Of a DNA stretch of 24,663 nucleotides, positions 4,515-20,420 are shown piece by piece. The translations under genes were made by a program, and so were the position numbers. Position 1 is the stretch's first letter. Every line of letters starts with the position of its first letter. Source of the stretch: a virus; the IMG/VR virus record IMGVR_UViG_3300007517_000035, positions 1 to 24,663 of that record; one strand, given 5' to 3'. The notes under the pieces were generated by a model that worked only from the letters and a program-made list of their open reading frames with translations, searched no databases and was not told the origin of the DNA.

Positions 4515-4552
4515 TAAAATTGGCGACAACAGATCGCACAATTTAGGACAGC
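4515..4552 (-). promoter_or_regulatory. Late-promoter-like motif, site D (terminase unit)
   Basis: On the minus strand the gap after the tape-measure stop holds GCTGTCCTAA (4552-4543), exactly 20 nt, then CAATTTTA (4522-4515), ending 5 nt before the ATG at 4509. The same arrangement occurs at 13277, 16574 and 20383. Site D is the weakest in its octamer (last base A rather than G). Confidence 0.5.
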
Positions 4553-4567
4553 ATCGCCAGTTAGCAT

Positions 4568-6511
4568 TTACACATTGGCTTCGTTCACGAGTTTGTTCAA
4601 CACATTCAGTCCCTTGGAAGTGTCCTGTAGATTATTAACTACCCTGATGGTAGCTATTTTTGAATCGATTCTCTTATCCATTGCGGCTGCCATCTTATCA
4701 TAGTCAAACATGCCTCCCGCGTTTGCGCTTGGCATAGCGCCTCGGCTGTTATCAAATGGGTTTGTTGGGCCGCCAGCGGCAAAGCTACGGCCACCGCCAG
4801 CCACGTTTATCTGGCTTGCCATGTTGCGAAGGTATGGGTCTCTGTAAACTCCCTTCGCCATAAACAGCTCATCACCTTCTACCTCTACTTGTATACCGCC
4901 CTGTGCATGGCTGGGGCCTTTAAATACTCCCCCTCTTTCAAACTTTTGCGCCTGTATCGCTTGCACAGCCGCTGCCGTGCGTGCCGCAGAAAAACCAATG
5001 CGAAAGGCTGCCAACACCTGCCCAAACGGGCCCAAGGCGGCAAAGGTCTTTGCAATCTCTGAAATCTCCATAATACCGTTCACCAATACCTGCCCGGTCT
5101 GTAGTGTTTTTATAGCATTGGCGTTTTTCTTGCGTGCCTCTGATGTTGCGCCCAACAGTGCAATCGTGCTGTTGGCACCTTCGTTAAAGGTGGCAAGGGT
5201 TTCGGCCTCAATGGCTCTCTTACCTTCTTCTATAAGTCTAAATTCTTCTGAATCCTTTTTATAGGCTTCGGTTTTTTTCTGCAAATGGGTGAGTAAAGCC
5301 GTCATGCTTATTTTGGCTTTGGCTGTAGCTTTGGCCTCCTGAGTTTCTTCCAGGAATTCGTTGTTTTTGTTGGCTCTATTCTCCTGCTCTTGCACAACCT
5401 TACTTTGGTCTTGATCTGTTTTCTTTGCGGCCTCTAATAGCTTAATTCTTCGTTCCTCCTGTTTATCGATAAGTGCATTTCTCTGATTTTGAAGTTTCTC
5501 CAAAGTCTTGAGAGACTCAGCCTGCGCCTCATCTACCGCTCGTATGCTATCCGATAGTTTTGTTGCCTCATCGCCACCTATTTTTGAGTTTTCAAGCAAG
5601 CGCATGCCGTAGGTCTGCGTTGTTTCATTCAGCTGCCTTTGAATATCATGCTTCATTCCAATGGCTTCAATGTCTATATCGCTTTGCCTTCGCGTAAGGC
5701 TCATTCTGTCATTGGTTTGTTTCTGCAAAAGGCCTTCTGCTTTTGTTTGAAGTGCAATTCTTTCGGCCTCAGTCTTTGTCCTATCTTTTGATTGAAGGAT
5801 CAACTCGTCAATTGTATTTTTTAGCCCTTGCTCTGCCGCTTTGAACTGATTGGTCTCATCTTCTAATTGATTTTGCTTATCTGCCAATTGCCCAGAAAGT
5901 TCTACGGCCCGTTGCAGTTGATCACCCACCCCGCTCACACTGTTTTTCATCTCTCCAAAACCTTTTTTAAAATCTCCGGAAAGGATCGAGACAATACCTT
6001 TTCCAAACCTACCGAGGCGTTCCAACAGCACATCAAAAATGGCAGTTATTTGCCCCCATCTCTTGCCAAAAAGATCAGCCGTTTCATCGTCTGTTTTAAT
6101 GGCTGCATAAATAGCACCTATACCCAATGCAATGGCCACCACTATGGCACCAATGCCCGTGGCGATAATGGCGGCTGACAGCCCCCAGAAACTGGTCGTT
6201 AGCCCACCTACACCAACACGCGCGGCTGATAGCGCCCCCGATAGCTGGCTAAAGCCGGGTATCTGATTAAGTATGCCGCCAAACTGCCCTTTCAAACTGT
6301 TGCTTGCGTCCGTGGTATTCTTTATCTCTTTTTTGACATCACCCATTTTGCCTTCAACCTGATTGAGCGAGGCCGCAGACTTAATAAACTCTTCCGTACC
6401 GGGCTTTAAGCCACCAACCTCTTTGCGCAATGCTGCTGCTTGGTTGGTAAGCTGCTTTAGGGTTTCGCCTGCCTTCTGGCCGTTGGCCAATTCAATGTTA
6501 ATTTTTGCCAT
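4568..6511 (-). CDS. Tail tape measure protein
   Basis: A 647-aa protein with the usual tape-measure architecture. The N-terminus is helical with repeated polar heptads, a hydrophobic segment at ~108-137 (rich in Ala, Ile, Gly) would interact with the host membrane at injection, long coiled coils follow at ~195-400, and the C-terminus carries a GG-rich region (RGGVFKGPSHAQGG, near 530). It scaffolds tail-tube assembly and sets tail length; at the general ratio of about 0.15 nm per residue the tail would be near 100 nm. It starts 9 nt after the preceding stop. The genes just upstream are baseplate-like rather than the usual tube and frameshifted chaperone genes. Confidence 0.9.
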   Translation of the reverse strand: MAKINIELANGQKAGETLKQLTNQAAALRKEVGGLKPGTEEFIKSAASLNQVEGKMGDVKKEIKNTTDASNSLKGQFGGILNQIPGFSQLSGALSAARVGVGGLTTSFWGLSAAIIATGIGAIVVAIALGIGAIYAAIKTDDETADLFGKRWGQITAIFDVLLERLGRFGKGIVSILSGDFKKGFGEMKNSVSGVGDQLQRAVELSGQLADKQNQLEDETNQFKAAEQGLKNTIDELILQSKDRTKTEAERIALQTKAEGLLQKQTNDRMSLTRRQSDIDIEAIGMKHDIQRQLNETTQTYGMRLLENSKIGGDEATKLSDSIRAVDEAQAESLKTLEKLQNQRNALIDKQEERRIKLLEAAKKTDQDQSKVVQEQENRANKNNEFLEETQEAKATAKAKISMTALLTHLQKKTEAYKKDSEEFRLIEEGKRAIEAETLATFNEGANSTIALLGATSEARKKNANAIKTLQTGQVLVNGIMEISEIAKTFAALGPFGQVLAAFRIGFSAARTAAAVQAIQAQKFERGGVFKGPSHAQGGIQVEVEGDELFMAKGVYRDPYLRNMASQINVAGGGRSFAAGGPTNPFDNSRGAMPSANAGGMFDYDKMAAAMDKRIDSKIATIRVVNNLQDTSKGLNVLNKLVNEANV

Positions 6512-6520
6512 GGTATTTTT

Positions 6521-7045
6521 TTATGGTTTCTCCAATGAAGCGGTTAGTTCATATTCAATGCCGCGCTCCCATATCGTCACTGTGTCGGCATTCATTTGTT
6601 TTACAATTTTTACAAGGGTTTTGCGCTTCCATCCTTTGGCCTTCCATTGGCTGTGCTTGCGCTTTGCCCACGCTACCCCAGCGGCAATCTTTTTTATTTG
6701 CGCTTCGTTGCTCAGCCGTGTGCTGCCCACGCCACTTACATAGCGGAAGCTGCTCACACCCTTTGCCGCCACCCACTTCTCTAGCTTCTTTAGGTCTGGC
6801 ACTTTGTTCCACACTGGGTTTTTGTAATCCAAAAATCGGCCATGATCTTTATAGAGTAGGCTTACCATTGGTGGGTCTGTTTCGCTGGCGGCTTTCACAT
6901 CTACAGCAAGCGAGTTCAACAGTTCTTTGGTGGCGGTGAGCCGTGCTGCTGTTATCACGCTGGTGGCTTTTGCGAGCAGTTCTTGAGCCTTCTGTTGTGC
7001 GAGGGTGTTTAGGGCGGTTTGTATGTGCGCGGGTATAGGGGTCAT
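6521..7045 (-). CDS. Putative neck / tail-completion protein (HK97 gp10-like)
   Basis: A 174-aa basic protein. The layout (long N-terminal helix, DYKNPVWNKVPDLKKLEKWV in the middle, then WAKRKHSQWKAKGW and a helical C-terminus) resembles gp10-type head-tail joining proteins seen in Bacteroidota phages, where a 'GRFLDxGxxW...' block is followed by 'AxAxAxxIxxxGW'. It starts one base after the stop of the baseplate-like gene (TGA-G-ATG) and precedes the tape measure. The assignment is by pattern memory and context and is moderate; a tail-associated role of another kind is possible. Confidence 0.55.
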   Translation of the reverse strand: MTPIPAHIQTALNTLAQQKAQELLAKATSVITAARLTATKELLNSLAVDVKAASETDPPMVSLLYKDHGRFLDYKNPVWNKVPDLKKLEKWVAAKGVSSFRYVSGVGSTRLSNEAQIKKIAAGVAWAKRKHSQWKAKGWKRKTLVKIVKQMNADTVTIWERGIEYELTASLEKP

Positions 7046-7046
7046 C

Positions 7047-8870
7047 TCAACACTTGTAAAGAGTGGCCATGATTATAATGTCGTCCATCATCAGTTCCAC
7101 ATCTAAGAAAGCAATGAAATAATCATTGCGGTCGTATTGGATCTTCTCGTCAAAGTCTAATGCGCTAAGCTCTGCCATGCCCCAGGAAAGACGAACTTCA
7201 ATTATCTTTCTATTCATCCGGTTTGAAATGAACCTACGATAATCATCTGTATAAATAGTGGCCAGCCCTCTGGATACACCCACGGTTGGGTAAGTACTGA
7301 ACAAGTAGGTAACAAAGCGCAAAGAGAAATCTTTCTTGTCTTCGCTGCTATAAAGGAATCCAATTGGGTTGCCTGTTAATGTATCTACAACACCGCTACT
7401 TGTCTCCGTTGCTTTTATGGGAATTGTTATTTCAGGGTCTCCGATATCAAAATAATCTCCACTATCGGAGAGGTCTTCACTTTTATCTGCTTGCAAGCGA
7501 ATACCGGTGACTCTATCATCTATAAATGATTTGACAACTCCCGCCTGATTGCTAATGTCTTTTTTGGTGGTAGACTCAACAATCTGCTTCCTGCTTTTTA
7601 TCGAGATGTTGTTGGTCTGCGCATTGTATACAATCTTTAGGTTGTACCTGCTTTGCAGCGCCTTTAATAAATCAATAAATGAATAGTCAGGAGCTAGATC
7701 AGCTAGATTGAACTCACGTTTCCAAAACAAAAAAGGGTTGCCACCAATAAAAGGTTGAAGAAAACCCAGTGGTGCCGTGTTGTGGATGAGTAACGAATTG
7801 TAAAATGGTGTGCCCACCCAGTCGCCCTCATAGCTGATATTAAAGTAAGTGGCCGCCTTTTCAAACACATGGCGAAGGGTGAGCATAGGGTGAAGCGTAT
7901 ACTGGCGATTTTCAAAAGAATAAAATTGATAGAAACTATTATTTGGAACATTCTTTTTAAAGTTGCCACCACCAGTCCCGTTTTCTAATGCATTCGAAGT
8001 TCTAAAAAAAGTAGAAGTAGCCGTTCCATCTCCGCCCACCACTGCTTCCTTCTGCAAAATATCCTGCTTGCCCAAAGGGATTCTAAATTTATTGGTAGCT
8101 GGTATGTTGGTTTTGTAACTGGCAAAAAAGGAATCAAACGCAGCGTAGTATCCGGGCAGTTCAAAGTCTGTTAACCAAATCCGCAAGGCATTGTTGATAC
8201 TATCTGAGTTTGGTACGCTCTCGCTTATACTAAGAAGTGCATGCGGATCTCCGCCAAAGTCCGTACTCGTCAATTTTAAGAAAGGCGCAGCCAGTCCGTT
8301 TGGGCTAGTGCCAGAATTTACTACCGTTGCCAATGCTCTGGGCTGAGATATATCTACGTTGATGGCATCGGCAAGAGCGGTTAGCGTTGCCCCATCATAA
8401 TTCCTGCCGTTTACTTTTATTGGATTGTCACCGGTAAACCCCCCTCTTGGTCCTGCCTTGATAAAGATAGCTTTGGCAACTGTAGCGTTGCTGATAACAA
8501 TGTTTTCATTGACTAAATCCTTAATCTTTTTTGATTTGAAATCATCAGAGATAGTTGCCAGCCCAAGCACAAAGTTTACAGATAGCTTTTCAGCAGACTG
8601 GCTTACCTTTATCTTCCCTTTTCTAAATAGGTTGTCATCAAAAAAGATGGAGGCATCTTTCTTTATTGCTCCAACGGACTCAACCACATCAAAATGATCA
8701 AAAAGAATCGCATTGGTGTCGCTATCTTCGGGGGTTGCTATATCAAAAGGAAAAGATACATCGCCCGGTATAATTCCATCGTCTGTAAATAGAGAGTTGC
8801 TCAGTTTGAAACTGATCTTGGCATCGGGCGGTAAGTCTACTTTACGTCCCTCAATTTCTAGACTTATCAT
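7047..8870 (-). CDS. Baseplate / tail-associated structural protein
   Basis: A 607-aa protein I assign to the tail tip by context and style. The N-terminus (ISLEIEGRKVDLPPDAKISF, then a 'GDVSFPFDI' block at ~37-45) is typical of large Bacteroidota-phage tail proteins that may correspond to distal tail or hub proteins. The body is beta-rich with scattered aromatic residues; no catalytic motif, signal peptide or membrane span is seen. Its start overlaps the stop of the 733-aa gene as ATGA, and it is followed at once by the gp10-like gene, so the three are translationally coupled. Confidence 0.6.
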   Translation of the reverse strand: MISLEIEGRKVDLPPDAKISFKLSNSLFTDDGIIPGDVSFPFDIATPEDSDTNAILFDHFDVVESVGAIKKDASIFFDDNLFRKGKIKVSQSAEKLSVNFVLGLATISDDFKSKKIKDLVNENIVISNATVAKAIFIKAGPRGGFTGDNPIKVNGRNYDGATLTALADAINVDISQPRALATVVNSGTSPNGLAAPFLKLTSTDFGGDPHALLSISESVPNSDSINNALRIWLTDFELPGYYAAFDSFFASYKTNIPATNKFRIPLGKQDILQKEAVVGGDGTATSTFFRTSNALENGTGGGNFKKNVPNNSFYQFYSFENRQYTLHPMLTLRHVFEKAATYFNISYEGDWVGTPFYNSLLIHNTAPLGFLQPFIGGNPFLFWKREFNLADLAPDYSFIDLLKALQSRYNLKIVYNAQTNNISIKSRKQIVESTTKKDISNQAGVVKSFIDDRVTGIRLQADKSEDLSDSGDYFDIGDPEITIPIKATETSSGVVDTLTGNPIGFLYSSEDKKDFSLRFVTYLFSTYPTVGVSRGLATIYTDDYRRFISNRMNRKIIEVRLSWGMAELSALDFDEKIQYDRNDYFIAFLDVELMMDDIIIMATLYKC

Positions 8871-11068
8871 AGCGGGGTATAGGCTAAATCAGTATAACCG
8901 CTCACTGCTTTGAAGCGCACAAACTTATTATATGCTCTGTCTTCGCTTTCAATGATTGATCCGCGCACGATCGCCAACGGATATCGGTTTGCGCCAATCA
9001 GCTCAAAGGCCTGCTTGGTCATTTGCACATCGGTAAAGTATGCCTGCCATGCAGCCCCGTTCACATCGGTAAAGAAGCCAGTGCTATATTCTGTGGTAGA
9101 TTGAAAACTCGCCTCGCTATTCTCAAACTGCCCTTGCAGCGCATCATACACGGGTGGCAAGTACTTTTGAATAACCTCACCGCTCACGTTGTTTTCTTTT
9201 TTAGCCTCGCCCGTTAGGCGGTGTACTTCATGTGCGCCCAGGCTGTTTACAATCATTAAAAATCTGCTCAGCGGGTGGGCGTTGGCATTCACCACATAGG
9301 TGCGCACTTCACTTATAAGGGTATCGGTCTGGTCGAGCAGGCTTACCTCATACTTAGTAACATTCTTTGCCGCGTTGATCGTGAGCGCTCCGCTGTTGGT
9401 AGGGCCTGCTGGTATTTGGTACAAGTGGCCGAGCTGTACGCCCGTTTTGGTGAGCAATGTGGCCGTTTGGTCGGTGGCATCATCAAAGTAGGCTTTCACG
9501 CGCAACTTGATAGACGTGGTAAGCCCAAACACATAATAGTTTAGATAATCCTCTTGGTTTTTTTCTACTAATTTATTGTTCGGTTGCCACGTCAAAAATT
9601 TCTTGGTAGTAGGTAATGCATCAAAGAAGTTACTGAGTGCATGTGCGTAGCTGCTAAGGCCGCCATACAAAACCTTAAATGGATTTGAGGTGGTAAACGG
9701 TGGCGTAGAAACCAATTCATCGGCCACTAGGGTATCAGTGATCACCACAAATGTTTTCATCCTATCCGTCAGCCGGATGATGGTGTTTGAATTAAAGGCC
9801 GGGGGTGCAAGCGAGAATATAGACCTCATTGCCTGCCTTAAGTTGAATAGGCAAAGGCCCGTTGCGGAAGGGTAAAGAGTGGTTTTGATTTTACTTGTGA
9901 ACACACCCGAGTCGGCCACATCTTCCACCTTCACTTCGGCATACATTCTCAAATTATCCTGCGCGGCCCAGTTGCTGGCAGCCTGCACCGAAAATGGAAT
10001 TGGGTTCTTGCTCCAATACACTTTTTGAAAAAACTGCACACCCACGTTTATCGTCACCAACTTGCCCACCAAGGCACCGTTGCTCATCTTTTTTACAATC
10101 ACATTGTAAGTGCCTGCCGCAAGCGGGGGAGAAAGATTTGAGCCTTGGTAGCTGACACCTCCATCAAAAGAGAAATTGTACGTGTCTGCCACGGTAGGTG
10201 TTACCACAATGGTGCCGTCAGCCGCTCCTATTATGGTCTCGTCTGTTTTTACAAATGTAAAATCAAAGCCGGGATTGGTAAAGTTGACGGTCTGGCTAAA
10301 GGTGACCACGCAGGTGGTGTTTACCGTTTCCCTTACTTTAAAAAGGTAAGCCCCCGGCAACAGCCCGCTAAAGACATTGCTCGATTGCCAGGTGATGCCA
10401 TTGTCTTTACTATATTCATATGGAGGTGTGCCCGCGCTTACGCTTATCGTTGCAGATCCGTCTGCAATGGCCAGCCCTGTTGCATTTACCGTACCAATGG
10501 TGGCGGCAAGCACACAGGTAAGAATAACATCTTCGTATTCGTAGCAATAAAAAGCATCTGCAAATACAGAAGCACCAAGCGTATTTATATTTAAGCTACT
10601 GCGTTCGATCACTAGACTCACTTGGCCCAAGTCGGCTGCGGTGGCTGTAAACCTCGCCTCTATCTTTTCCCAAATCACACTGGTACTCATCTGTAGAAGA
10701 GTCCTATGGCCTGAAAAATCGGGTAAGACAAAACCCGTTGCCTGCTTGCGTTTAAGCCTCAATAGATTTGTATCTTCTGCTGCACTGCTGTTGGCCTTGC
10801 AGTACACCTCTATTACGTATTTCTTGCCTACCGTAAGCCCGGGAATGTTACCAATGGCAATCTCCTGATCGATCAGCCCATTATCAAAAACAACTGGGTT
10901 GCCGATTGTATTACTAAAAAGTGAAAAGTTACCTTGATGGCTAGGCCCATTAAATATCCTAGTTAAGGCTCTGTCAGGTGTATCAAACCCCCAGACGCTA
11001 GGGTCGCTTTCAAAATTACCGTTGTTGCCAAGGGTATTCAGGTTTCCGCTAATGATATTTATCGCCAT
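8867..11068 (-). CDS. Large tail protein with carbohydrate-binding-like and SprB-like domains
   Basis: A 733-aa multidomain protein, likely part of the tail tip or adhesion apparatus. Residues ~10-180 look like a jelly-roll carbohydrate-binding module (GNFESDPSVWGF at the front, ending in a beta strand with 'VFADAFYCYEYED'). Two tandem Ig-like repeats follow: ~184-262 (IADGSATISVSAGTPPYEYS ... LLPGAYLFKV) and ~268-341 (GAADGTIVVTPTVADTYNFS ... LAAGTYNVIV). They match the SprB repeat style of Bacteroidota surface adhesins. The C-terminal ~390 residues are a separate domain shared in style with Bacteroidota-phage baseplate proteins. Start 3 nt after the preceding stop; stop overlaps the next ATG. 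Host-surface recognition is inferred from the domains. Confidence 0.65.
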   Translation of the reverse strand: MAINIISGNLNTLGNNGNFESDPSVWGFDTPDRALTRIFNGPSHQGNFSLFSNTIGNPVVFDNGLIDQEIAIGNIPGLTVGKKYVIEVYCKANSSAAEDTNLLRLKRKQATGFVLPDFSGHRTLLQMSTSVIWEKIEARFTATAADLGQVSLVIERSSLNINTLGASVFADAFYCYEYEDVILTCVLAATIGTVNATGLAIADGSATISVSAGTPPYEYSKDNGITWQSSNVFSGLLPGAYLFKVRETVNTTCVVTFSQTVNFTNPGFDFTFVKTDETIIGAADGTIVVTPTVADTYNFSFDGGVSYQGSNLSPPLAAGTYNVIVKKMSNGALVGKLVTINVGVQFFQKVYWSKNPIPFSVQAASNWAAQDNLRMYAEVKVEDVADSGVFTSKIKTTLYPSATGLCLFNLRQAMRSIFSLAPPAFNSNTIIRLTDRMKTFVVITDTLVADELVSTPPFTTSNPFKVLYGGLSSYAHALSNFFDALPTTKKFLTWQPNNKLVEKNQEDYLNYYVFGLTTSIKLRVKAYFDDATDQTATLLTKTGVQLGHLYQIPAGPTNSGALTINAAKNVTKYEVSLLDQTDTLISEVRTYVVNANAHPLSRFLMIVNSLGAHEVHRLTGEAKKENNVSGEVIQKYLPPVYDALQGQFENSEASFQSTTEYSTGFFTDVNGAAWQAYFTDVQMTKQAFELIGANRYPLAIVRGSIIESEDRAYNKFVRFKAVSGYTDLAYTPL

Positions 11069-11071
11069 ATT

Positions 11072-11578
11072 CTATATCCATTTACTGGCATCGTAACTCA
11101 CGCCAGTGTTGTCCATAAATGTTATCTTCAACTCCCACCCCCGGTATACTGTGCTGCCGATCATCGTCTCTACCGGTGCGCCTTTTACTGAGCCTATATC
11201 CGTAGCTATCATCGTCCATACCGAGGCTATCAGGCTGCCTGTTTTATCTCTCAATATTTTACTTAGTATTTGATCGGCTATGCTTTCGCAGTATTCAAAG
11301 TCGGCATCTTCTAGTGCATACTCTTTGCCTGCACTCACTTTAAAAAAAGCGATAGTGGCCTGTTTGCGTTTCAAAATATTGTCGCTGATGGAATCTTCAT
11401 AGTCCACATTCTCATAGGGCTGCACCCACAAAAAGTTATCTTCTAAGTTGGCACGGTTAGCATTTACCACCACATCTCTATCGCCCCACTTGTAGCCGTT
11501 GATGGCAATGTTGGTGGTGGCTATGGCCTGAAAGTAGGCCTTGTAAGTGGCTAGGTTGGTAAGCAGTAGGTTAGGCAT
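11072..11578 (-). CDS. Putative tail or neck protein, function unassigned
   Basis: A 168-aa acidic soluble protein in the tail cluster. The N-terminal half is mixed alpha/beta with 'DNFLWVQPYENVDYEDSISD', the central part helical, and the end beta-rich (YRGWELKITF). Size and position between a helical protein and the baseplate-like genes would fit a tail terminator or neck protein, but no diagnostic motif is visible. It overlaps the upstream gene by 8 bp. Confidence 0.55.
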   Translation of the reverse strand: MPNLLLTNLATYKAYFQAIATTNIAINGYKWGDRDVVVNANRANLEDNFLWVQPYENVDYEDSISDNILKRKQATIAFFKVSAGKEYALEDADFEYCESIADQILSKILRDKTGSLIASVWTMIATDIGSVKGAPVETMIGSTVYRGWELKITFMDNTGVSYDASKWI

Positions 11579-12347
11579 TTTGCTGCGCTTTTAGTTTGGC
11601 AAGGCCGTCCATATAGTCGAGGGCATCGTACACATTTGCTTTGCCCGCAACGTCAAATCCCGCGAAGGCGGTAGTCTCACTTAGGCGGTGCTTTAGTTGC
11701 ATCCACATTGCGCCCGTGCTTCGTGGCTTCGCGCCTTCTGTTTCTTCTTCTGTTGGCAATAAGTGTCGGCACCGCTTTACGATGCTCTCTCTGATGTGTG
11801 CATAGGTAAAATAGATCAGGTTCAACTGCCATGGCTTTAACTTGCGGAGTAGATATTCGCCACGTGCTTCTATTTTTTCGCGTTCAAAAACAACTTCATT
11901 ATTGTAGCGATAGAGTGTTGCCGCCAGCCGTGCCAGGTACTTCACATCTTGCGTTACAATAAAGAGGGTAAACTCATTGTCTGCATAGATGAAATGATCG
12001 AACGTGTGCCGCTCCATATCATCATCGGGGGCAAAGAAATTATGCAATTCCTTTTCTCTAAAATAGCCCCACGGCTGTTTTAGAAAATCAAGATCATGGT
12101 AGCAGTCTAGCATCTGCATCTCGTCTATCCGATCTGTGAGCCGCCAATTTTTGCGCAGCTTACGCATCAGCGCAATCAGCGTGAAGCCATATTGTTGATC
12201 TTCTTTGCTAATGCCCTCTACCGCTTTCGACAACGCAAATACCTCTGCATGTTGCCGCGCGCTCAGTTGCTTCCAACTCGTGTAAAAGAGATCTCCTACT
12301 TTATAGGTCTTGTCAGGTTTGGAAGTCTTGTCAGTTTTTGCACTCAT
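11571..12347 (-). CDS. Conserved phage protein, possible tail assembly factor
   Basis: A 258-aa mainly helical, charged protein. The Lys/Asp-rich N-terminus leads to 'VGDLFYTSWKQLSARQHAEV', which resembles the opening of tail assembly chaperone-like proteins, but a frameshift site or tape-measure adjacency is lacking. The central region is Trp/Tyr-rich. No enzyme motif, signal or membrane segment is visible. Its ATG overlaps the preceding stop (ATGA) and its stop overlaps the next gene by 8 bp. I treat the function as unknown. Confidence 0.6.
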   Translation of the reverse strand: MSAKTDKTSKPDKTYKVGDLFYTSWKQLSARQHAEVFALSKAVEGISKEDQQYGFTLIALMRKLRKNWRLTDRIDEMQMLDCYHDLDFLKQPWGYFREKELHNFFAPDDDMERHTFDHFIYADNEFTLFIVTQDVKYLARLAATLYRYNNEVVFEREKIEARGEYLLRKLKPWQLNLIYFTYAHIRESIVKRCRHLLPTEEETEGAKPRSTGAMWMQLKHRLSETTAFAGFDVAGKANVYDALDYMDGLAKLKAQQNA

Positions 12348-12820: not shown

Positions 12821-13272
12821 TTGTTTGCGGTGCGTTTTTCCAGACTCCTTTTTACCACTATGGCCATCAATAAAAAAACAAGGAATGAAACTACACCCAC
12901 GCCCAGCCACTTGCGCGAGTCTCCCTCTTTGATGGTGTTGTTCACGCTCACCGGTACTTTCACATAGATGGTATCGCCCTTGCACTCTACGCGCACGTAT
13001 TCCCTTTTTAAAAGGGTGTCGTATTTTAGTTTTACAGAGTAGCGGGTATGCTTTATGTAAATGGTGTCGTGGGTAAATCTGCGATCGATAACCGTATCGT
13101 AGACCGCATACGGCACTATTACTTCCAATTCTTTGTAGACGGTATCTACGCGGGTTTTTGCGCCTTTGGCCTGTGCCATGCGCAGGTGATAGTTGGCGCG
13201 TTTTAAATGATGGTTTACACCGCAGCCGCTAAAGAGCAGCGCCATGCACACCCACAAAATAATTGATTTCAT
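12817..13272 (-). CDS. Unimolecular spanin (u-spanin) lipoprotein
   Basis: A 151-aa protein with a lipoprotein signal at one end and a membrane anchor at the other. Residues 1-16 form a signal sequence ending in a lipobox LFSGC with the lipidated Cys at 17; residues ~122-140 (WLGVGVVSFLVFLLMAIVV) are a transmembrane helix followed by a short basic tail. The middle is beta-rich, with repeated 'DTVY/DTIY' strands. Outer-membrane lipid at the N-terminus and inner-membrane anchor at the C-terminus define the u-spanin class, which bridges the periplasm and fuses the membranes in the last step of lysis. I know this layout from Bacteroidota phages. Its ATG is preceded by a short GC hairpin (13274-13288). 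Confidence 0.8.
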   Translation of the reverse strand: MKSIILWVCMALLFSGCGVNHHLKRANYHLRMAQAKGAKTRVDTVYKELEVIVPYAVYDTVIDRRFTHDTIYIKHTRYSVKLKYDTLLKREYVRVECKGDTIYVKVPVSVNNTIKEGDSRKWLGVGVVSFLVFLLMAIVVKRSLEKRTANK

Positions 13273-13273
13273 G

Positions 13274-13314
13274 CCCCTAATTTGGGGGTTCTTTTACCCG
13301 TTGCTTAGGACGGG
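13274..13314 (-). promoter_or_regulatory. Late-promoter-like motif, site C, with hairpin at the spanin start
   Basis: On the minus strand CCCGTCCTAA (13314-13305) is followed after exactly 20 nt by CAAATTAG (13284-13277), ending 4 nt before the spanin ATG (13272). The GTCCTAA overlaps the stop codon of the DUF5675 gene (13307-13305). A small hairpin CCCC-AAATTA-GGGG at 13287-13274 covers the octamer and the bases just before the ATG, and could limit spanin translation. Confidence 0.5.
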
Positions 13315-13781
13315 GTGATTAGCTTCTCCACATTGGTGACGGTGATGGTAACGGGCTGCCGTGCCGCTATGGCGTTGGCTATCGGTGGGTAAACCAGCCG
13401 ATAGGCCTGCTCACTGTTCAGCACCTGGCCATCGCCCATTTTGTTGTTGTTGGCAGTCATGCCAGTGAGTATACACCCAGCAGTATGGTCGTCTATGTTG
13501 CCCATGTGGATGAGTATGCCCTGAAAGCCCGGGACATTTTCCAACAGCAGCATGCCTTTGTGAAAGGCGGGAAACCTAGTGCCATATCTTTTGTGATGGC
13601 CACCCCAAGTGGCAAGGATTATCTTGTAAGTACCCTCCGGTATGCGCGTTTCGCTCATCACCTTTTTGGAGATTGGGCGGTACTCATCTTCGAGCGTGTG
13701 ACAGATAAATACATCATCAATAAAAAACGCACCAATGGTACTTTCTTTATTGGCAGAGTAGCGGATGAGTTTTAGGTTCAT
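13305..13781 (-). CDS. DUF5675 protein, probable lysis or cell-wall-acting enzyme
   Basis: A 158-aa protein of the DUF5675 type. Landmarks are 'ETRIPEGTY' at ~44-52, 'MLLLENVPGFQGILIHMGN' in the middle with H92, and 'TAGCILTG' with C103. The His-Gly-Asn ... Gly-Cys arrangement recalls the H...(S/T)xGC signature of L,D-transpeptidases (YkuD fold), suggesting a Cys-based active site on peptidoglycan. DUF5675 genes often lie in phage lysis modules, and here the next gene is the spanin. No classical endolysin is seen elsewhere in the window, so this may be the wall-degrading protein. That role is inference. Starts 48 nt after the previous stop. Confidence 0.75.
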   Translation of the reverse strand: MNLKLIRYSANKESTIGAFFIDDVFICHTLEDEYRPISKKVMSETRIPEGTYKIILATWGGHHKRYGTRFPAFHKGMLLLENVPGFQGILIHMGNIDDHTAGCILTGMTANNNKMGDGQVLNSEQAYRLVYPPIANAIAARQPVTITVTNVEKLITPS

Positions 13782-13829
13782 TTCGAAATGAGTGAGAAAT
13801 AGGTGAAGATGATGCCCGTCTTGTTTCTT

Positions 13830-14870
13830 TCATACAGTAAAGAATCTATCGTGGGGGTTTTCGTTCAAGGGTTGCCAGGTAGGCCCTGGCACAGGCTGCA
13901 CGGTGAAGGCACCCGTGGCCGCTATCAATGGGTAGTTGGCAATGTTATCGCTAATAAATTGCTGTAGGTTATTTTCGTCACTTTCAAAACCCATCACGTC
14001 ATCACTACTGCCTTTCAGTTGCTTGCGAAGCTCGTCAATCTCTGGCTTGGTTGCCAAAAATCCAGTCTTGCGGGTGTCGGTTATATCGCTGTTCAACCAC
14101 AGCCCATCGTTGGCAATGCTCACACGCATAAATGGAAGCTGCATATACAATGCCCGTTTGCTTATAATAGGTTCGAGCATTTCTATCAGCAGCTTTTCGT
14201 TGGGGGTAGTAGTGCCAGCTTTTAGCTTTGTCACCAGCATATCATATTGCGCTTGCCCTACCAGTTTCGAAGCAATGCGTTTTTCTACCTCGCGGATTTT
14301 TGGTAGTAGCTTCAAATATATCCTGCGGCTGTTGCTGATGTCTATCCACTTGTTTGCGATGGCCGTGCCATACACAATCAGGCCGCTGTTGATCGTGTTG
14401 GCGGAAGACGTAAACCAAAGTGCAAAATCGTTGCTCACCGTGGCGGATATCTCTAAGTGCAGCAATAATCTATCGGCATGGATATCGCCATTTTTGAGGG
14501 CGTTGTACAATAGGTTTTCTTCCTTCCACCGGGGGGCGGGGTCGTTGTCTTCACCACGGTCTTGCCGTATGCCCATGTTGCCAAAACTCACACTCATCTG
14601 GGGGATGCCCAACAATTGCATGTAGTAGGCAAGGCACCTCTGTACCAATGGCAGCAGCGTTTGATTGAGGGCGCTCAATGCTACGGGGCTTACGATCAAC
14701 ATGGAGTTGTCGTACTTGGTGTTGAAGTCGCCATAGAACGCATTGCCCAAAAGATCTCTGAGATACAACTGCTCGGCTTCATCGATGTACGGCTTCACGG
14801 TATCAAACGAAGTATTAGGATCTATGCTTAGATACTTTCTGATCTCGGATATGTTGGTGAATAAGCTCAT
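13830..14870 (-). CDS. Head-tail connector-like protein (DUF6712-type)
   Basis: A 346-aa protein directly after the portal, overlapping it by ATGA. The N-terminus (FTNISEIRKYLSID, then 'VKPYIDEAEQLYLRDLLG' at ~25-42) is the pattern I associate with the DUF6712 proteins of Bacteroidota phages, which occupy the head-tail adaptor position. The protein is largely helical, with no catalytic motif, and its C-terminal tail is proline-rich. Role as a connector is inferred from position after portal; the family name is from memory at moderate confidence. Confidence 0.65.
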   Translation of the reverse strand: MSLFTNISEIRKYLSIDPNTSFDTVKPYIDEAEQLYLRDLLGNAFYGDFNTKYDNSMLIVSPVALSALNQTLLPLVQRCLAYYMQLLGIPQMSVSFGNMGIRQDRGEDNDPAPRWKEENLLYNALKNGDIHADRLLLHLEISATVSNDFALWFTSSANTINSGLIVYGTAIANKWIDISNSRRIYLKLLPKIREVEKRIASKLVGQAQYDMLVTKLKAGTTTPNEKLLIEMLEPIISKRALYMQLPFMRVSIANDGLWLNSDITDTRKTGFLATKPEIDELRKQLKGSSDDVMGFESDENNLQQFISDNIANYPLIAATGAFTVQPVPGPTWQPLNENPHDRFFTV

Positions 14871-16240
14871 ACTATTGATTTGCCGGTGGCAGTTCCGGAT
14901 GATGTGGGCGATTGACTGTCATTGGTTGGCGATTGCTCGTTTTGCACGGCAAAGCCTCCTTTGTTTTGGTCGGTCGTTTGCAACACCACATCGCGATAGC
15001 CGAGGTATAAATCCTTCGGCCATCCATTTACCCTCTTGATCAGTTCAAACGGTTCTAACGTAGTTTGGCGCGGCTGTGCAGTTATTACCTGCATGTAGAA
15101 GTTAAACTGCTCGCGCAAATCGCTACCACTGCCGCTGCCAAGGCCATTGGGCAGCACTGCACCGCTCAGCGAAGGACTCATGCCCAGCCCGCTGGCCATT
15201 GCCATCTGTGCCGTGCCGTATGCTTTGAGCCACGCCTCGTGGTTGATGGGGTTATCTAGGGGGATCACCTCCCAGCCCGGTAGTGGCTTGCCATTATCGT
15301 CTATCGCTACTTTGCTGTAGAAGGCTTTGTTTACATTGCTCTCACCGGCTAGGTAGCTGTCAATTTTTCTATATAGATCTTGTTCGTCTGTTGCAATCGC
15401 CTGGTTGCGCTCTTCACCCGTCTTGTACATTTCTGTCGGGTGCCGCTTCATAAAATACTCAAGCGGTATCTTCACATGGTACTTGATGTTTATCGAGTTG
15501 TCTATGTTGGCAAGTATCCAGCGGGGGATTTTACTGGCAATAGCCAACCACCGGCTGATGCCATGCCAACCCGGTTGTGGGTAGTAGTCTTTATCGATGC
15601 TCAGCAGTTGATGTTTGTATAAGCCATAGCTACCAGTAAGCCGGTCAAATGCGGGTATGGTTATATACTCTTCAGCTACGGGATTAGGCCAGAGGCCACT
15701 TATAAAGTAGTTATCAATCTTTCCTGTTTGCGGGTTTCTTTTTGCGGCTCGCACATCTTTCATGCGCTGCCATTTTACTTCGGCAATTTTGCCTGCACCG
15801 TTTTTTATGTATTGCACGTAGAAGGCACTCCACCACTCAAAGTCTGCTATGATGCCCTGCTGAAAGTTCTGCCAATCGTTGTACCACATGAAATCCAATA
15901 TCTCATTGGGTACTTTCTCATCGGGTACAAACTCAATTTGTTCGTTGCCTTTGGCATCGTATGTTTTCTTGTGAAACATTAACCCACGCCCCCAGTGCAT
16001 AGCCCTGCGCTTCTCTAGCAGCGTGGCCACCGGGTCGGCCATCACGGCATCTATCAATGTTTGTGCGTAGTCATTGTTATAGCCCCAGCGCACCCACTTG
16101 TTAGTGGTTAAACTCGCGCGTGTACCCGCATCTGGCTCTATGGCCTTTTTACTGGTTTCATAAATCGCGCTGGTGCTCACATAGATGCCCTGCTCTATGC
16201 GCTGCAGTTCAAAAGTTGATGTTGGCATTTCTGTTTCCAT
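14867..16240 (-). CDS. Phage portal protein
   Basis: A 457-aa protein from the ATG at 16240, which overlaps the previous stop as TGATG; a TTG one codon earlier is less likely. It shows portal features: a helical N-terminal wing, an aromatic middle ('WWSAFYVQYIKN' near 130), a stem-like helical region, then 'GLGMSPSLSGAV' and 'GSGSGSDLREQFNFYM' near 350-385, the glycine-rich loop and crown helix often seen where portals recruit neighbouring subunits. It forms the dodecameric DNA gate at one head vertex, engages terminase and joins the tail. The C-terminal ~25 residues are low complexity. Context is right (next to the connector) although portal follows capsid here. Confidence 0.85.
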   Translation of the reverse strand: METEMPTSTFELQRIEQGIYVSTSAIYETSKKAIEPDAGTRASLTTNKWVRWGYNNDYAQTLIDAVMADPVATLLEKRRAMHWGRGLMFHKKTYDAKGNEQIEFVPDEKVPNEILDFMWYNDWQNFQQGIIADFEWWSAFYVQYIKNGAGKIAEVKWQRMKDVRAAKRNPQTGKIDNYFISGLWPNPVAEEYITIPAFDRLTGSYGLYKHQLLSIDKDYYPQPGWHGISRWLAIASKIPRWILANIDNSINIKYHVKIPLEYFMKRHPTEMYKTGEERNQAIATDEQDLYRKIDSYLAGESNVNKAFYSKVAIDDNGKPLPGWEVIPLDNPINHEAWLKAYGTAQMAMASGLGMSPSLSGAVLPNGLGSGSGSDLREQFNFYMQVITAQPRQTTLEPFELIKRVNGWPKDLYLGYRDVVLQTTDQNKGGFAVQNEQSPTNDSQSPTSSGTATGKSIV

Positions 16241-16563
16241 CAATGGAACACCCGTTGCCAGGCGGTTTGGTTGTGGTCAGAAAAGAAACAGATGGTGGAC
16301 ACCTTCACATGGCGAGGTTCGTCTATCTCAAGATCGTGCAACAGCATATTGCCGGCCCTCTTTAAGTTGTACATTACTTTGCCTTTTTCATTGGGGGTTT
16401 CTAGTTTTTGTTTGGGGCTTTTTACATTCTTGCGGGCGCGCATAGTGCGCAGGCGGCCATCGGTGGTTATGAACTGTATGCCGTAGTCTTTTACGGTAAA
16501 GTCCGCTTCGTCTACCGTGTCGTCAAATCGCTTTAGCACGCTGCCAATGTCTGTTATGCCCAT
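16240..16563 (-). CDS. Conserved Bacteroidota-phage protein of unknown function
   Basis: A 107-aa basic protein immediately before the portal. The C-terminal half ('YNLKRAGNMLLHDLEIDEPR' and then a strand ending in 'WQRVFH') follows a pattern I recall from many Bacteroidota prophages, where a strand 'NLKxxGxLLLxD' is followed by 'Pxx(I/V)xxx...FNxxxVxH'. No known function and no catalytic motif. It is the first gene of the portal unit, following the terminator at 16623 and motif site A. Confidence 0.7.
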   Translation of the reverse strand: MGITDIGSVLKRFDDTVDEADFTVKDYGIQFITTDGRLRTMRARKNVKSPKQKLETPNEKGKVMYNLKRAGNMLLHDLEIDEPRHVKVSTICFFSDHNQTAWQRVFH

Positions 16564-16573
16564 ATAAGTAAAT

Positions 16574-16611
16574 CAAACTTACAGGGTAATAGGCAGCGGA
16601 CTTAGGACGGC
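16574..16611 (-). promoter_or_regulatory. Late-promoter-like motif, site A (portal unit)
   Basis: On the minus strand GCCGTCCTAA (16611-16602) is followed after exactly 20 nt by TAAGTTTG (16581-16574), a perfect match to the Bacteroidota -7 consensus TAnnTTTG. It ends 10 nt before the ATG at 16563. It lies just after the terminator of the previous unit, which is the expected place for a new promoter. Confidence 0.6.
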
Positions 16612-16616
16612 TACAA

Positions 16617-16645
16617 AAGTAAAAAGCCCCAACTCGTGGGGCTTT
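16617..16645 (-). terminator. Terminator of the capsid unit
   Basis: On the minus strand AAAGCCCC (16645-16638) pairs with GGGGCTTT (16630-16623) around a 7-nt loop and runs straight into a T-rich tract to 16617. It lies 75 nt after the stop of the 181-aa gene and 54 nt before the next start. The 156-bp gap 16564-16719 thus holds a transcription boundary: this terminator plus site A. Confidence 0.85.
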
Positions 16646-16719
16646 CGCATTAACCTAAAAAACGTATGAAACAATATAACCCGTCTGGTTATTTCTTTTG
16701 CCGTGATGGCGTTATGGCG

Positions 16720-17265
16720 TTATGGAGTTACGTCAATCGTAGACCCGTATTCAATAGGTGCGTGTATGGTGGTAGTTTTAAAAACAAAAGTAGCACCCAG
16801 TGCATCACCTCTTTTAGAACCGCTATCGCCTGAAACACTTTCTAAATAAACAGGCGGGAATAAGCTGAGCACCGTAGTGGTTTTATCCAAGTTGGTAAGC
16901 CCCAACACAAATAGTTTGCCTGTATTGGCCATGCGGAAGATGACCAACAAGGGGCCATTCTGCACACCGCGAAGCCACTCATACATCGGGCGGTCCATTT
17001 TCGGAAACTTGCCCGTGAGCATGATCTCCAACGCACGGCCATCCACATCGCCCACGCTTTTAAACTCCAGCTTGCCACTTTGATCGGTGATATACATCAC
17101 GCCAAACTTGGTGGCAGCTTGTAGCACCACGGGGGCTATGCACCGCAGCGTACCCACCGCGCTGATAGCAGGGATGGAAAGTATCTCTGGGTGCGATACC
17201 ACAAAGATGGCATCAACGGTACCCGCGAGGTTATCTTCTTGCTGTACAAATGCTAAATCATTCAT
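16720..17265 (-). CDS. Putative tail tube or virion structural protein
   Basis: A 181-aa beta-rich soluble protein after the capsid genes. The C-terminus ('GDSGSKRGDALGATFVFKTT' then 'HAPIEYGSTIDV') resembles the end of tube-type proteins in Bacteroidota phages, where a 'DRxGxxFTFE' strand is followed by a proline-aromatic strand. Size suits a major tail protein. No signal or catalytic motif. It starts 3 nt after the preceding stop and is closed by a strong terminator 75 nt downstream, so it is the last gene of the capsid unit. A head decoration protein is the alternative. Confidence 0.5.
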   Translation of the reverse strand: MNDLAFVQQEDNLAGTVDAIFVVSHPEILSIPAISAVGTLRCIAPVVLQAATKFGVMYITDQSGKLEFKSVGDVDGRALEIMLTGKFPKMDRPMYEWLRGVQNGPLLVIFRMANTGKLFVLGLTNLDKTTTVLSLFPPVYLESVSGDSGSKRGDALGATFVFKTTTIHAPIEYGSTIDVTP

Positions 17266-17268
17266 GGC

Positions 17269-17649
17269 TTAGTCAATTAATATTTTTGCAGACCCACGTA
17301 AAACCAGTTTGCCCAAGATCGCTTGCGCTCTCTCTTGTTCTTTGCCACTGCCATTTTCGGCAGCTTCGATAAGTTCAAAGCCATCTTTCACGGTGTTGTC
17401 ATCCCACATGAACTTCTTGCACGGCAGTTGATAGGTGCCAGCTTCAATATCATTGTCGCTGTCTTCTTCCACTTCAAAAGTGGGAAGCTTATCATCGGCC
17501 CTCGGCATCTTTACTGCCGCCAGCTCTTCGTTTTGCTCTTGTAGCTTTTGTATCGCTGCCAATTTCTCAGCATCAGTAAGTGCTGCAAACTCTTCTGCCG
17601 AAAGTGATCCACTGTTGGCAGTTTCTTTTATTTTTTTCTTTGTTGCCAT
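17269..17649 (-). CDS. Small acidic protein of the head module
   Basis: A 126-aa protein: a lysine-rich first 8 residues, a helical Ala/Glu-rich stretch (~17-46), then an acidic linker ('FEVEEDSDNDIEAG') and a C-terminal strand-helix region. Bacteroidota phages often carry such a small protein just after the capsid gene. It could be a head-associated or head-tail joining protein; nothing specific is visible. It is separated from the capsid gene by a hairpin terminator (17679-17701), so its expression should be lower than capsid. Confidence 0.6.
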   Translation of the reverse strand: MATKKKIKETANSGSLSAEEFAALTDAEKLAAIQKLQEQNEELAAVKMPRADDKLPTFEVEEDSDNDIEAGTYQLPCKKFMWDDNTVKDGFELIEAAENGSGKEQERAQAILGKLVLRGSAKILID

Positions 17650-17671
17650 AAGGCGTTTTTTTTAAGAGTGA

Positions 17672-17701
17672 AATAAAACCCTCGGCTTTTTACACCGAGG
17701 G
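17672..17701 (-). terminator. Terminator or attenuator directly after the capsid gene
   Basis: On the minus strand CCCTCGG (17701-17695) pairs with CCGAGGG (17685-17679) over a 9-nt loop, followed by TTTTATTT to 17671. It starts 10 nt past the capsid stop and lies 23 nt before the 126-aa start. Partial termination here would give extra capsid mRNA relative to the two downstream genes. Confidence 0.8.
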
Positions 17702-17710
17702 ATTAATTTT

Positions 17711-18943
17711 TTAAGCTTGGTCGCCTACGCGGATAGCTGCCAGATCTTGGATTTGGAAACCCATCGCCATTTTGATACCCACTTTCAATGTCCACAAATC
17801 AGAATCTTTTACAGCCACTTCGTTAGCATCGCTAAGTAAGTCTGTACCCATATAAAGATTTTGATGACGGGCTTGCCCCGGTATTGTTGGGCCTGCAACC
17901 AATCTGCGGCTTGTGCCCAACCAGCTTGCAGGTTTTACAATCAACTTATTGCCAGTCTCAGGCATCACTATGAAGTTGTTGTTGATATCAATATTGTCTT
18001 TGAAAGACTGATACTTGGCTGACAAATCATCGAGCAACAAATACCAATCGGTAAATGAGCAGGAGATGATCGATCCGTAATTTTGGTAAGGGATTGGCAA
18101 TGACCTGAACAGTCTCTTGAATGCTGATATAGCCACGCCTGCAGTGGCGTTTACCACTCCGGTAGCAAAAGGGGTGATGTTGCTAGCTGCGATCTCTGTC
18201 AAGATATAACTTTCTAGGCCTGGGCCTACTGCACGGGCAGTTACATTTCTCCAAAGGTTGGGGTGCGAATCAGGGTTGTTGCCTGCTACGGTAGTGCCGG
18301 TAGCTGCAAACCACTCTTGCACAGAGCGCGGGTTGTTGGTTGTGGGCGTATAGCGCATGCGCTGCCCGATAGTGTAAACAGTAGCAGGGGCGTAGGCGGC
18401 TGTTACGCTGCCATCAAAACCTAGCCACGCGGTCTCATCATTGATATCGCGCTTGTAACCTTTCATGATCTGGTCCCACACAAAGTTCTCAAACGGAACT
18501 TCCTTTTTTGTTGCTCCGCTGCCACTGCCGGTGTTCCACGCATAATAGGTGTTTCTGTAAGCCTCAATGTCTATCAACAAATCACGCTTACCGATAGTAA
18601 CGGTCAAGAAACGGTTTGTGTAGTTTAATTCGTTTGGCTTAAACTCTTCGCTAGAAGAATACGGGCGCAAGCCGCCAGCTACCTGTAGCCGGGGCAACGG
18701 GATTCTGTTTTTCACATTTGGCTGCACGGTAATGTCGTTGGCGATATCCAAATCGTTGAGCAACGTGGCGATCAATGCCGCTTGGTTCTGCTCGGCAAAG
18801 CTGGTGATGGCAGAGGTGTTCACACCAAGGCCGAGCAACATATAGTTGACAGGCATTTGTAAAAACAATACTGCGGGGTTGGCGGTAACAACGCTAATGG
18901 TTGCCACCAGCAACAGGTACGAGAGTGCTAGTAATTTTTTCAT
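17711..18943 (-). CDS. Presumed major capsid protein with a signal-peptide-like N-terminus
   Basis: A 410-aa protein directly after the prohead protease/scaffold gene (stop TAA, one base, ATG), the usual capsid position, and closed by its own hairpin. Size suits an HK97-fold capsid. It is rich in loops and strands with an aromatic-rich centre ('AYRNTYYAWNTGSGSG' near 125-140, an extended E-loop-like stretch), and 'SYLLLVATISVVTA' forms an unusual N-terminal hydrophobic segment (residues 8-21) after MKK, like a Sec signal sequence. Alternative starts at Met30 or Met38 would remove it, but the tight spacing to the protease stop favours the first ATG. No fold-specific motif is visible, so the assignment is by position, size and context. 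Confidence 0.72.
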   Translation of the reverse strand: MKKLLALSYLLLVATISVVTANPAVLFLQMPVNYMLLGLGVNTSAITSFAEQNQAALIATLLNDLDIANDITVQPNVKNRIPLPRLQVAGGLRPYSSSEEFKPNELNYTNRFLTVTIGKRDLLIDIEAYRNTYYAWNTGSGSGATKKEVPFENFVWDQIMKGYKRDINDETAWLGFDGSVTAAYAPATVYTIGQRMRYTPTTNNPRSVQEWFAATGTTVAGNNPDSHPNLWRNVTARAVGPGLESYILTEIAASNITPFATGVVNATAGVAISAFKRLFRSLPIPYQNYGSIISCSFTDWYLLLDDLSAKYQSFKDNIDINNNFIVMPETGNKLIVKPASWLGTSRRLVAGPTIPGQARHQNLYMGTDLLSDANEVAVKDSDLWTLKVGIKMAMGFQIQDLAAIRVGDQA

Positions 18944-18944
18944 T

Positions 18945-19412
18945 TTATTTTAAGTTGGTAATTTTAAGATTCATTCTTTCTTGATACTTGGCCAGCTCGG
19001 CTGCCTCTTGCGTGGCATGGGCTACCGGCTGCGCTGCCTGTTCGTTTGCCTGCGCCTCTTCACTTGCGCCTGTCACTACAGTAGTTGCATGGCCTGCCAA
19101 CTTAGCATCTGCTTTCTTTTGCAGATCTGCGTGGGCGGCTGTCAATGTTTCTTTCTCTTTTTCAAGAGAAGCAATGCGGGTGTTGCCACTCGCCACGGTT
19201 GCTTCCAGTGTTGCCACTTGCGTGGAGCTGGTTGCGGCATCAGCACGTAGCTGATCGTTCTCTGCCTTTACCGAAGTATAACTAGCTTCCATCTCTGCCA
19301 CTTTTGTTTCAGTGGCCGCGAGGGTAGCCTGTTCGTCCTCCGTCAAAGCAGCTTTCGCTTTCTTCCCGGCCTGGCCAGAAAAAAAGTTACTAAGGATGTT
19401 TTGGATTTCCAT
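18945..19412 (-). other. Possible internal start giving a separate scaffold protein
   Basis: Met319 of the protease gene (ATG at 19412) opens a 155-residue segment consisting almost entirely of the coiled-coil region and its tail. In lambda the protease gene C contains a nested scaffold gene (Nu3) in the same frame. Upstream of this ATG the minus strand reads AAGTAAATAGTAAT, A/T-rich as is common before Bacteroidota starts, with AAGGG only ~18 nt upstream. There is no direct evidence of initiation. Confidence 0.3.
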
Positions 19413-20366
19413 ATTACTATTTACTTGCCCTTGCGGGGCTACAGTACTTTTTTGTTTGGCCTTTGCCAACTCTGCCACTTTGGTGATGGCCGTTTGCAAC
19501 GTGCCTACCACATCAATCAAACCTATTTTTTTGGCTTCGTACACGTCAAACATGCGGCCTTTAAATAGGCCATCCGCTTTCACGTCCAGCTTATCGCCAC
19601 GGCCAGCTTTTACAATAGAAATAAACTGATCTGCAATAGCGGAAAGACTTGCGCTTATCACACTTTCGATTTCTGGCGTGGCCGCTTCGTATTGGTTTAT
19701 CAGCGCCTTCTCGGTGCTTTGCTTGGCGCGATAAATGGTCACGTTCGGATAGTTGCCTGCCTCTTGCATATTGCTGTAGTTGGGCAAGCCCATCAGCACG
19801 CCTATACTTCCAATTTCTGTCGGGTTGTTTTTGTTGCCCACTATTATGCTCGCTTGGCTTGCCAGCCACACGCCCGCGCTCGCGAGGGTGCCATCGGCAA
19901 AAACGCCCACGGGCTTCCTGCTTGTTTTGATCGACAACGCAAACTCTGGCGTGCCATCAACAGTGCCCCCGGGTGTGTCCATGATAAACACAGAGCCATC
20001 AATGCCGGGCGATGCGTTTGCACGCGCGAGCAGTGATTGATAGCCTTGCATGCCCATGTTGCACAGATCGCTATATTTTGTGAGTGCGCCCACGATGGGG
20101 ATGAGTGCTATGTTTTTTCCGTTGGCCGTGGCGATCGGTAGCTTTGCGTCTTGGTCAAAACCAAAAGATATATCGCTAAGGTATTCACCAGTGGGAAAAC
20201 TATCACTGGCCACCAGCAACGCTTCGATCATTGGCTGATAGTCTTCAATACTTTTTTTGCTAATGAGGTTGTGACCATGCTGCAAAGCATCTAAGTAAAC
20301 ACTGTAGTATTTATTTAAGAAGCCTTCGCTGATCGCCCACTCGCTATATTGAAAAAGTGCTGTCAT
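18945..20366 (-). CDS. S49 (SppA-type) prohead protease with C-terminal coiled-coil (scaffold-like) region
   Basis: A 473-aa protein. Residues ~85-295 are an S49 peptidase domain of the ClpP/crotonase-like superfamily: 'MDTPGGTVDG' at ~129-138, the nucleophile S163 in 'LASAGVWLAS', 'EIGSIGVLMG' at ~184-193, and K215 in 'YRAKQS'. Ser163 and Lys215 are 52 residues apart, the same spacing as the Ser-Lys dyad of Bacillus SppA (147/199). Residues ~335-425 are a long Ala/Glu/Lys coiled coil, unlike host SppA and typical of phage protease-scaffold fusions. It should mature the procapsid by cleaving scaffold and/or capsid. The ATG at 20366 lies 16 nt past motif site B and the gene ends one base before the capsid start. 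Confidence 0.9.
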   Translation of the reverse strand: MTALFQYSEWAISEGFLNKYYSVYLDALQHGHNLISKKSIEDYQPMIEALLVASDSFPTGEYLSDISFGFDQDAKLPIATANGKNIALIPIVGALTKYSDLCNMGMQGYQSLLARANASPGIDGSVFIMDTPGGTVDGTPEFALSIKTSRKPVGVFADGTLASAGVWLASQASIIVGNKNNPTEIGSIGVLMGLPNYSNMQEAGNYPNVTIYRAKQSTEKALINQYEAATPEIESVISASLSAIADQFISIVKAGRGDKLDVKADGLFKGRMFDVYEAKKIGLIDVVGTLQTAITKVAELAKAKQKSTVAPQGQVNSNMEIQNILSNFFSGQAGKKAKAALTEDEQATLAATETKVAEMEASYTSVKAENDQLRADAATSSTQVATLEATVASGNTRIASLEKEKETLTAAHADLQKKADAKLAGHATTVVTGASEEAQANEQAAQPVAHATQEAAELAKYQERMNLKITNLK

Positions 20367-20382
20367 TTTCTTTATTACAATG

Positions 20383-20420
20383 CTAAATTAGGGTGTGTCG
20401 GTCATGTGACGTAGGACGGC
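20383..20420 (-). promoter_or_regulatory. Late-promoter-like motif, site B (protease-capsid unit)
   Basis: On the minus strand GCCGTCCTAC (20420-20411) is followed after exactly 20 nt by TAATTTAG (20390-20383), one mismatch from the -7 consensus TAnnTTTG, 16 nt before the protease ATG. The upstream element is enclosed by a dyad, GTGAC (20406-20410) and GTCAC (20427-20431) on the plus strand. The site lies in the 100-bp gap 20367-20466, which otherwise holds only a relic repeat (20432-20453). Confidence 0.55.

Follow-up and report, generated by a model that had tools for sequence, protein, structure and literature searches.

Late gene units and bipartite sites in the window

The stretch analyzed here, hereafter the window, spans the whole of an IMG/VR record (24,663 bases). 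It represents one end of a prophage and carries, besides a tRNA-Glu (positions 44-116), an integrase as well as late genes, the latter encoded by the minus strand. The pattern GTCCTAM-N20-YAANTTWR had been proposed to occur there in four copies, and exact minus-strand matches were found at 20417-20383, 16608-16574, 13311-13277, and 4549-4515 (sites 1 to 4). These are the sites of the original prediction, albeit their start positions had been placed 3 nt upstream of the GTCCTA pattern and are corrected here. Including the two further copies that had been noted in TerL and the tRNA, there are six GTCCTA sequences on the minus strand in total. The four sites head the protease-capsid, portal, tail, and terminase units, as had been proposed, and the homologous unit starts carry sites in related phages (see below).

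At site 1, the GTCCTA element (20412-20417, minus strand) and the -7 box TAATTTAG (20383-20390, minus strand) precede the protease-capsid unit, the first gene of which, with its start codon at 20366, was identified as an S49 protease by both PHROG and Pfam. The element is kept upstream of the protease homologs in all of the relatives covering this place. The unit following site 2 encodes a 107-aa protein, the portal, a DUF6712 protein, and a DUF5675 protein. Its GTCCTA element lies at 16603-16608 and its -7 box TAAGTTTG, which matches TAnnTTTG in full, at 16574-16581 (both minus strand), followed by ATG at 16563. An intrinsic terminator (aagcccc acgagtt ggggctt ttt; 16621-16645, minus strand), as read from the sequence, ends 12 nt before this site.

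The GTCCTA element of site 3 (13306-13311, minus strand) overlaps with the final codons of DUF5675 and precedes the unit of a 151-aa putative lipoprotein and tail genes. Its -7 box CAAATTAG (13277-13284, minus strand) is followed by ATG at 13272, and the mRNA is predicted to start at this ATG itself if the box-to-start distance is taken from PMC9723704. At site 4, the GTCCTA element (4544-4549, minus strand) and the -7 box CAATTTTA (4515-4522, minus strand) precede ATG at 4509, which is most likely the start of the terminase unit rather than the GTG of 4539 given in the list of open reading frames. An imperfect inverted repeat, AAATTG-T-GCGA..TCGC-CAATTT (4517-4544, minus strand), lies within the spacer and the -7 box of site 4.

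The start codons are 16, 10, 4, and 5 nt downstream of the box at sites 1 to 4, respectively, in agreement with the predicted range of 4-16 nt. The octamer had been regarded as a -7-like box, and it indeed matches the -7 element of the host sigma-A, TAnnTTTG, which spans -12 to -5 in Flavobacterium psychrophilum (PMC9723704); of the 6 bases fixed in this element, the window boxes have 4 to 6. The TTTG expected at -33, 19-21 nt before the -7 box, is absent from all four sites, and GTCCTA, spanning about -39 to -34, occupies its place as had been proposed. The mismatch-free pattern matched the window four times and none of 100 dinucleotide shuffles, although the pattern had been derived from the same four hits and the independent evidence is that of the relatives.

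The element in related and distant phages

Viral-contig searches with the protease alone and with the portal alone gave no matches. By searching genomes with TerL, we retrieved two prophages in metagenome-assembled genomes of Cytophagales/Cyclobacteriaceae (G001 and G002; 74-75% TerL identity), both of which bear GTCCTA directly before the homologous starts of the protease, portal, tail, and terminase units. The spacers of these prophages differ and cannot be aligned, while the register of GTCCTA, 21 nt, and a TAnnTTTG-like box is constant. Before the divergent fibre unit of each prophage, we observed two tandem sites 62 nt apart (G001:C33:83642 and 83580; G002:C227:16400 and 16338). Ten more viral contigs were added via TerL and portal alignments. 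Altogether, the element precedes late units (protease, portal, terminase, and tail/fibre) in the relatives, being found at the corresponding places of 13 related phage contigs, one of them held out, with diverged spacers and flanks. When variant hexamers are counted, every contig that covers the start of the protease unit or of the portal unit has a site there, and the layout of a terminator followed by a promoter was shared by the portal units of most relatives. The held-out contig (G015), which was fetched afterwards, possesses sites at the protease, portal, terminase, and fibre units. The terminase site reads ATCCTA in G010, and none was seen in G005.

The sites within a single phage vary together: the hexamer is GTATTA at all four sites of G006 and GTACTA at all five curated sites of G007, and the spacer is 22 nt at all four curated sites of G009. 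Such concerted variation would be expected if one trans-acting phage protein read all of the sites. In 46 curated sites, the spacer was N21 in 35, N22 in 10, and N20 in one. The phase to the -7 box is kept at 21(+/-1) nt, and the register is better written as GTCCTA-N21-TAnnTTTG. In the -7 box of the same sites, A and TT are nearly invariant, G was found in 36 and T at the seventh place in 31, and C is slightly favoured ahead of GTCCTA, as are A and C behind it. Note that this set was picked by eye with variant hexamers included, so that the counts describe the motif and do not constitute a test. Among 11 non-redundant related phages, in which no motif was chosen beforehand, GTCCTA was the hexamer most enriched between genes after poly-A/T; 38 of its 71 copies were intergenic (P of about 5e-20), the intergenic sequence amounting to 10%. 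GTAACA/GTTACA (TGTAAC) was also enriched between genes in the relatives and is possibly a repressor operator.

The element directly precedes start codons, as would a translation enhancer or a leader structure acting at the RNA level on read-through transcripts. Nevertheless, start codons in the curated sites lie anywhere from 3 to 24 nt past the box while the distance between the two boxes stays fixed, a terminator often lies directly upstream of the site, and a hairpin in the spacer is confined to the terminase site. We thus regard an RNA-level signal as highly improbable.

The terminase promoter of the relatives carries a palindrome, TGGCGAC-N4/5-GTCGCCA, between the boxes and overlapping the -7 box, which occurs once per phage and only there; in G006, the palindrome is changed in a compensated manner (TGGCCAG..CTGGCCA). 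This palindrome may be a terminator, an operator of a second regulator, or a packaging signal. We rejected the idea that the terminase site is a mere terminator hairpin, as the confinement of the palindrome to that promoter leaves the family of sites unexplained. The additional palindrome, together with the fact that a protein bound over the -33 region would block sigma, could be taken to mean that the element is a repressor operator holding the late genes off in the lysogen instead of an activator site. On the other hand, GTCCTA is non-palindromic and strictly phased with the -7 box, and it displaces the -33 element, so that the core promoter should be poor without help. We consider the operator very unlikely, if slightly less so than the RNA-level signal.

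A host motif was examined and rejected as the source of the element. The strict pattern of the original prediction matched once in the whole genome of G001, at the prophage site, and twice in that of G002, leaving 0-2 strict matches outside the prophage in these two host genomes. Over 396 Bacteroidota genomes, GTCCTW-N21-TAnnTTTG was sparse, and its counts did not exceed those of the reversed control in most rows.

Beyond the close relatives, GTCCTT-N21 followed by a TAnnTTTG-like box was found in Polaribacter phage Leef_1, Mea-Yong924-1, Cellulophaga phage Ingeline_1, Bacteroides phage BT-TP2, and a human faecal contig, with 4-5 sites each that mostly precede late genes, as assigned from the deposited annotation and our reading of the upstream regions. 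Flavobacterium phage 6H has GTCTTA with a spacer of 20-21 nt. The enrichment of the hexamer inside any single genome of the distant phages was modest. Mea-Yong924-1 (MZ447863.1; hereafter MeaYong) has been deposited as a cyanophage of Microcystis, but both its genes and its late promoters are of the Bacteroidota type, suggesting that a member of Bacteroidota in the culture is its true host. Separately, a bacterial locus (G229:C1:602400-605700) has three GTCCTA-N21/22-TAnnTTTG-like sites before non-phage genes, adjoining a gene for a probable AraC-type regulator; this locus contains neither c16 (see below) nor phage genes, and its sites are possibly those of a convergent activator.

Proposed late promoters and a candidate activator

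The sites are kept at unit starts in a phase of 21(+/-1) nt, change in concert within a phage, follow a terminator at the portal unit in most phages, and do not represent a motif of the two whole host genomes. Thus, we propose with considerable confidence that a temperate Bacteroidota phage uses the four sites in the window as activator-dependent late promoters. The comparison with the relatives supports the late promoters originally envisaged, in which a host-like -7 box would be combined with a phage-specific element at the -33 position: an element foreign to the host is common to several late units and stands in a fixed phase with a sigma -7/-10 box.

In the mechanism that we envisage, host RNA polymerase with the primary sigma factor would open the double helix at the TAnnTTTG box (-12 to -5), and GTCCTA at about -39 to -34 would replace the missing -33 contact by binding a phage-made activator, which would dock on or remodel sigma region 4. 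The late genes would be silent until the activator is made. The fixed phase between the boxes would also suit one sigma factor, alternative or encoded by the phage, that reads GTCCTA and the -7 box alike and needs no additional activator. We regard such a sigma factor as improbable, since the primary sigma of the host uses this same -7 box, which remains constant while the upstream box changes, no sigma-factor match or domain was detected among the conserved early proteins tested from the early regions of the relatives, and the c16 family has no match to known families.

The transcripts would start with the start codon itself or a few bases upstream of it, so that the late mRNAs would be nearly leaderless. 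In 29 of the 46 curated sites, as counted by hand, the start codon (ATG or GTG) lies 3-5 nt past the box, and the mRNA should therefore begin within about a base of it, if the start point known for the host sigma applies to the phage. For comparison, leaderless mRNAs account for 5.5% in F. psychrophilum (PMC9723704), and 5' leaders shorter than 10 nt for about 3.7% in B. thetaiotaomicron (PMC7366714).

The likely activator would be a member of the c16 family, whose gene closes the early region and directly precedes the late genes; in the phage studied here, c16 is predicted to lie beyond window position 24663, as the 24.7-kb contig does not reach that part of the genome. The members, of about 155 aa, were found in all 10 of the contigs covering the early-late border, where they sit just before the late units. 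No match to c16 was detected in Pfam, PHROGs, or NCBIfam. Its AlphaFold model (pLDDT of 83) had no match in PDB and no recognised DNA-binding fold, and the one significant viral match of the fold was a 157-aa protein of Leef_1 (E-value of 6.8e-5 and TM-score of 0.73), which has the length of gp39, the product of the gene directly before the Leef_1 late genes. A c16 profile built without Leef_1 detected gp39 (5.5e-14) and a MeaYong protein (7.8e-5). Among the early families tested, only c16 reached Leef_1, MeaYong, G336, G087, and G189 together (E < 0.001), albeit the last three were chosen by c16 and the unbiased genomes in this comparison are only G015, Leef_1, and MeaYong. Another candidate, c19, was rejected, as it was not detected beyond the close relatives.

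A search of the 396 Bacteroidota genomes with c16 alone retrieved three new prophages, all of which have GTCCTA-N21-box sites on the late strand, and in two of them a site lies before c16 itself. Such sites preceding c16 were observed in G007 (position 10310 as oriented), G087 (G087:C4:26317), and G189 (G189:C16:154053), suggesting that c16 may be positively autoregulated. All c16-positive phages share the TerL/portal lineage, and the co-occurrence of c16 and the sites may therefore reflect shared ancestry.

The activator could instead be another phage protein or a host activator. The promoters of Ingeline_1 and BT-TP2, with the GTCCTT form, match those of the other phages, and c16 was not clearly detected in these two genomes; the profile comparisons of c16 with BT-TP2 gp8 and Ingeline_1 gp41 were not significant, and the AraC-linked host promoters in G229 share the spacing. 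Against this, c16 is the only shared early family, its position at the early-late border recurs, and the c16-only search retrieved prophages carrying the sites. We therefore hold an activator other than c16 to be a serious possibility, and lean slightly towards c16 as the candidate activator of the late promoters. Promoter activity, the start point, and the binding of c16 to GTCCTA are all deduced here from sequence comparison.

As a separate feature of the early regions, a diversity-generating retroelement was observed in G001, G003, G006, G009, G010, and G011 (e.g., 8222-10968 of G006 as oriented). Its reverse transcriptase (RVT_1) has about 319 aa and is accompanied by an Avd-like gene of 98 aa and by two or three short target genes in tandem, of which the products end with ..GSSGFR..VGSRLCF. 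BT-TP2 possesses a related reverse transcriptase.

Comparison with known promoter systems and implications

The primary sigma promoters of Bacteroidota comprise TTTG at -33 and TAnnTTTG at -7 (PMC7366714, PMC9723704), and a genome-wide -33 motif could not be identified in F. johnsoniae (PMC7366714). The sites described here share the -7 element and, with the 21-nt spacer, nearly the usual distance, but differ in bearing the phage GTCCTA/GTCCTT at about -39 to -34 in place of TTTG, in heading phage late units, and in the start codon lying mostly 3-5 nt from the box.

In the middle promoters of phage T4, the host sigma retains its -10 contact and a phage box substitutes for the -35 contact. The proposed promoters are alike by analogy, with a phage box in place of the upstream sigma contact, to those subject to sigma appropriation by MotA/AsiA (PMC6755090). 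They differ from the T4 promoters in the sequence and position of the box and in serving late rather than middle genes. No MotA/AsiA-like match was found among the conserved early proteins of the relatives tested. Protein C of phage Mu binds a longer site that lies further upstream. As in the late promoters of Mu (PMC4461284), several late units would depend on one phage activator upstream of the promoter, whereas no known activator family matched c16. Phage-specific promoters are also found in phiEco32-like phages, which encode their own sigma factor (PMC8948821), but the sites here use the host -7 element, and the early proteins tested included no sigma factor.

Activator-dependent late promoters of phages are a known kind, and the family, its candidate activator, and its spread in Bacteroidota are apparently undescribed; we found no published description of such a motif in the open-access literature searched. 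In the broadest reading, which we consider evenly balanced, GTCCTW-N21-TAnnTTTG would be a phylum-wide late-promoter code of Bacteroidota siphophages, in which new activators of the c16 family replace the contact of sigma region 4 and the late mRNAs are nearly leaderless, some of them starting with GUG.

The motif would predict many nearly leaderless mRNAs in Bacteroidota, which do not use Shine-Dalgarno signals. A protein family that lacks matches in the databases searched also gains a candidate role as late activator, and a motif marking late units would allow operon structure and gene timing to be read directly from metagenomic phages. As Leef_1, Ingeline_1, BT-TP2, and 6H are cultured phages, the promoter reading is testable now. 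Late gene control in the phages of Bacteroidota, those of gut Bacteroides included, has been poorly known, and the distribution of the sites points to a common control system of late genes in phages ranging from seawater to the human gut.
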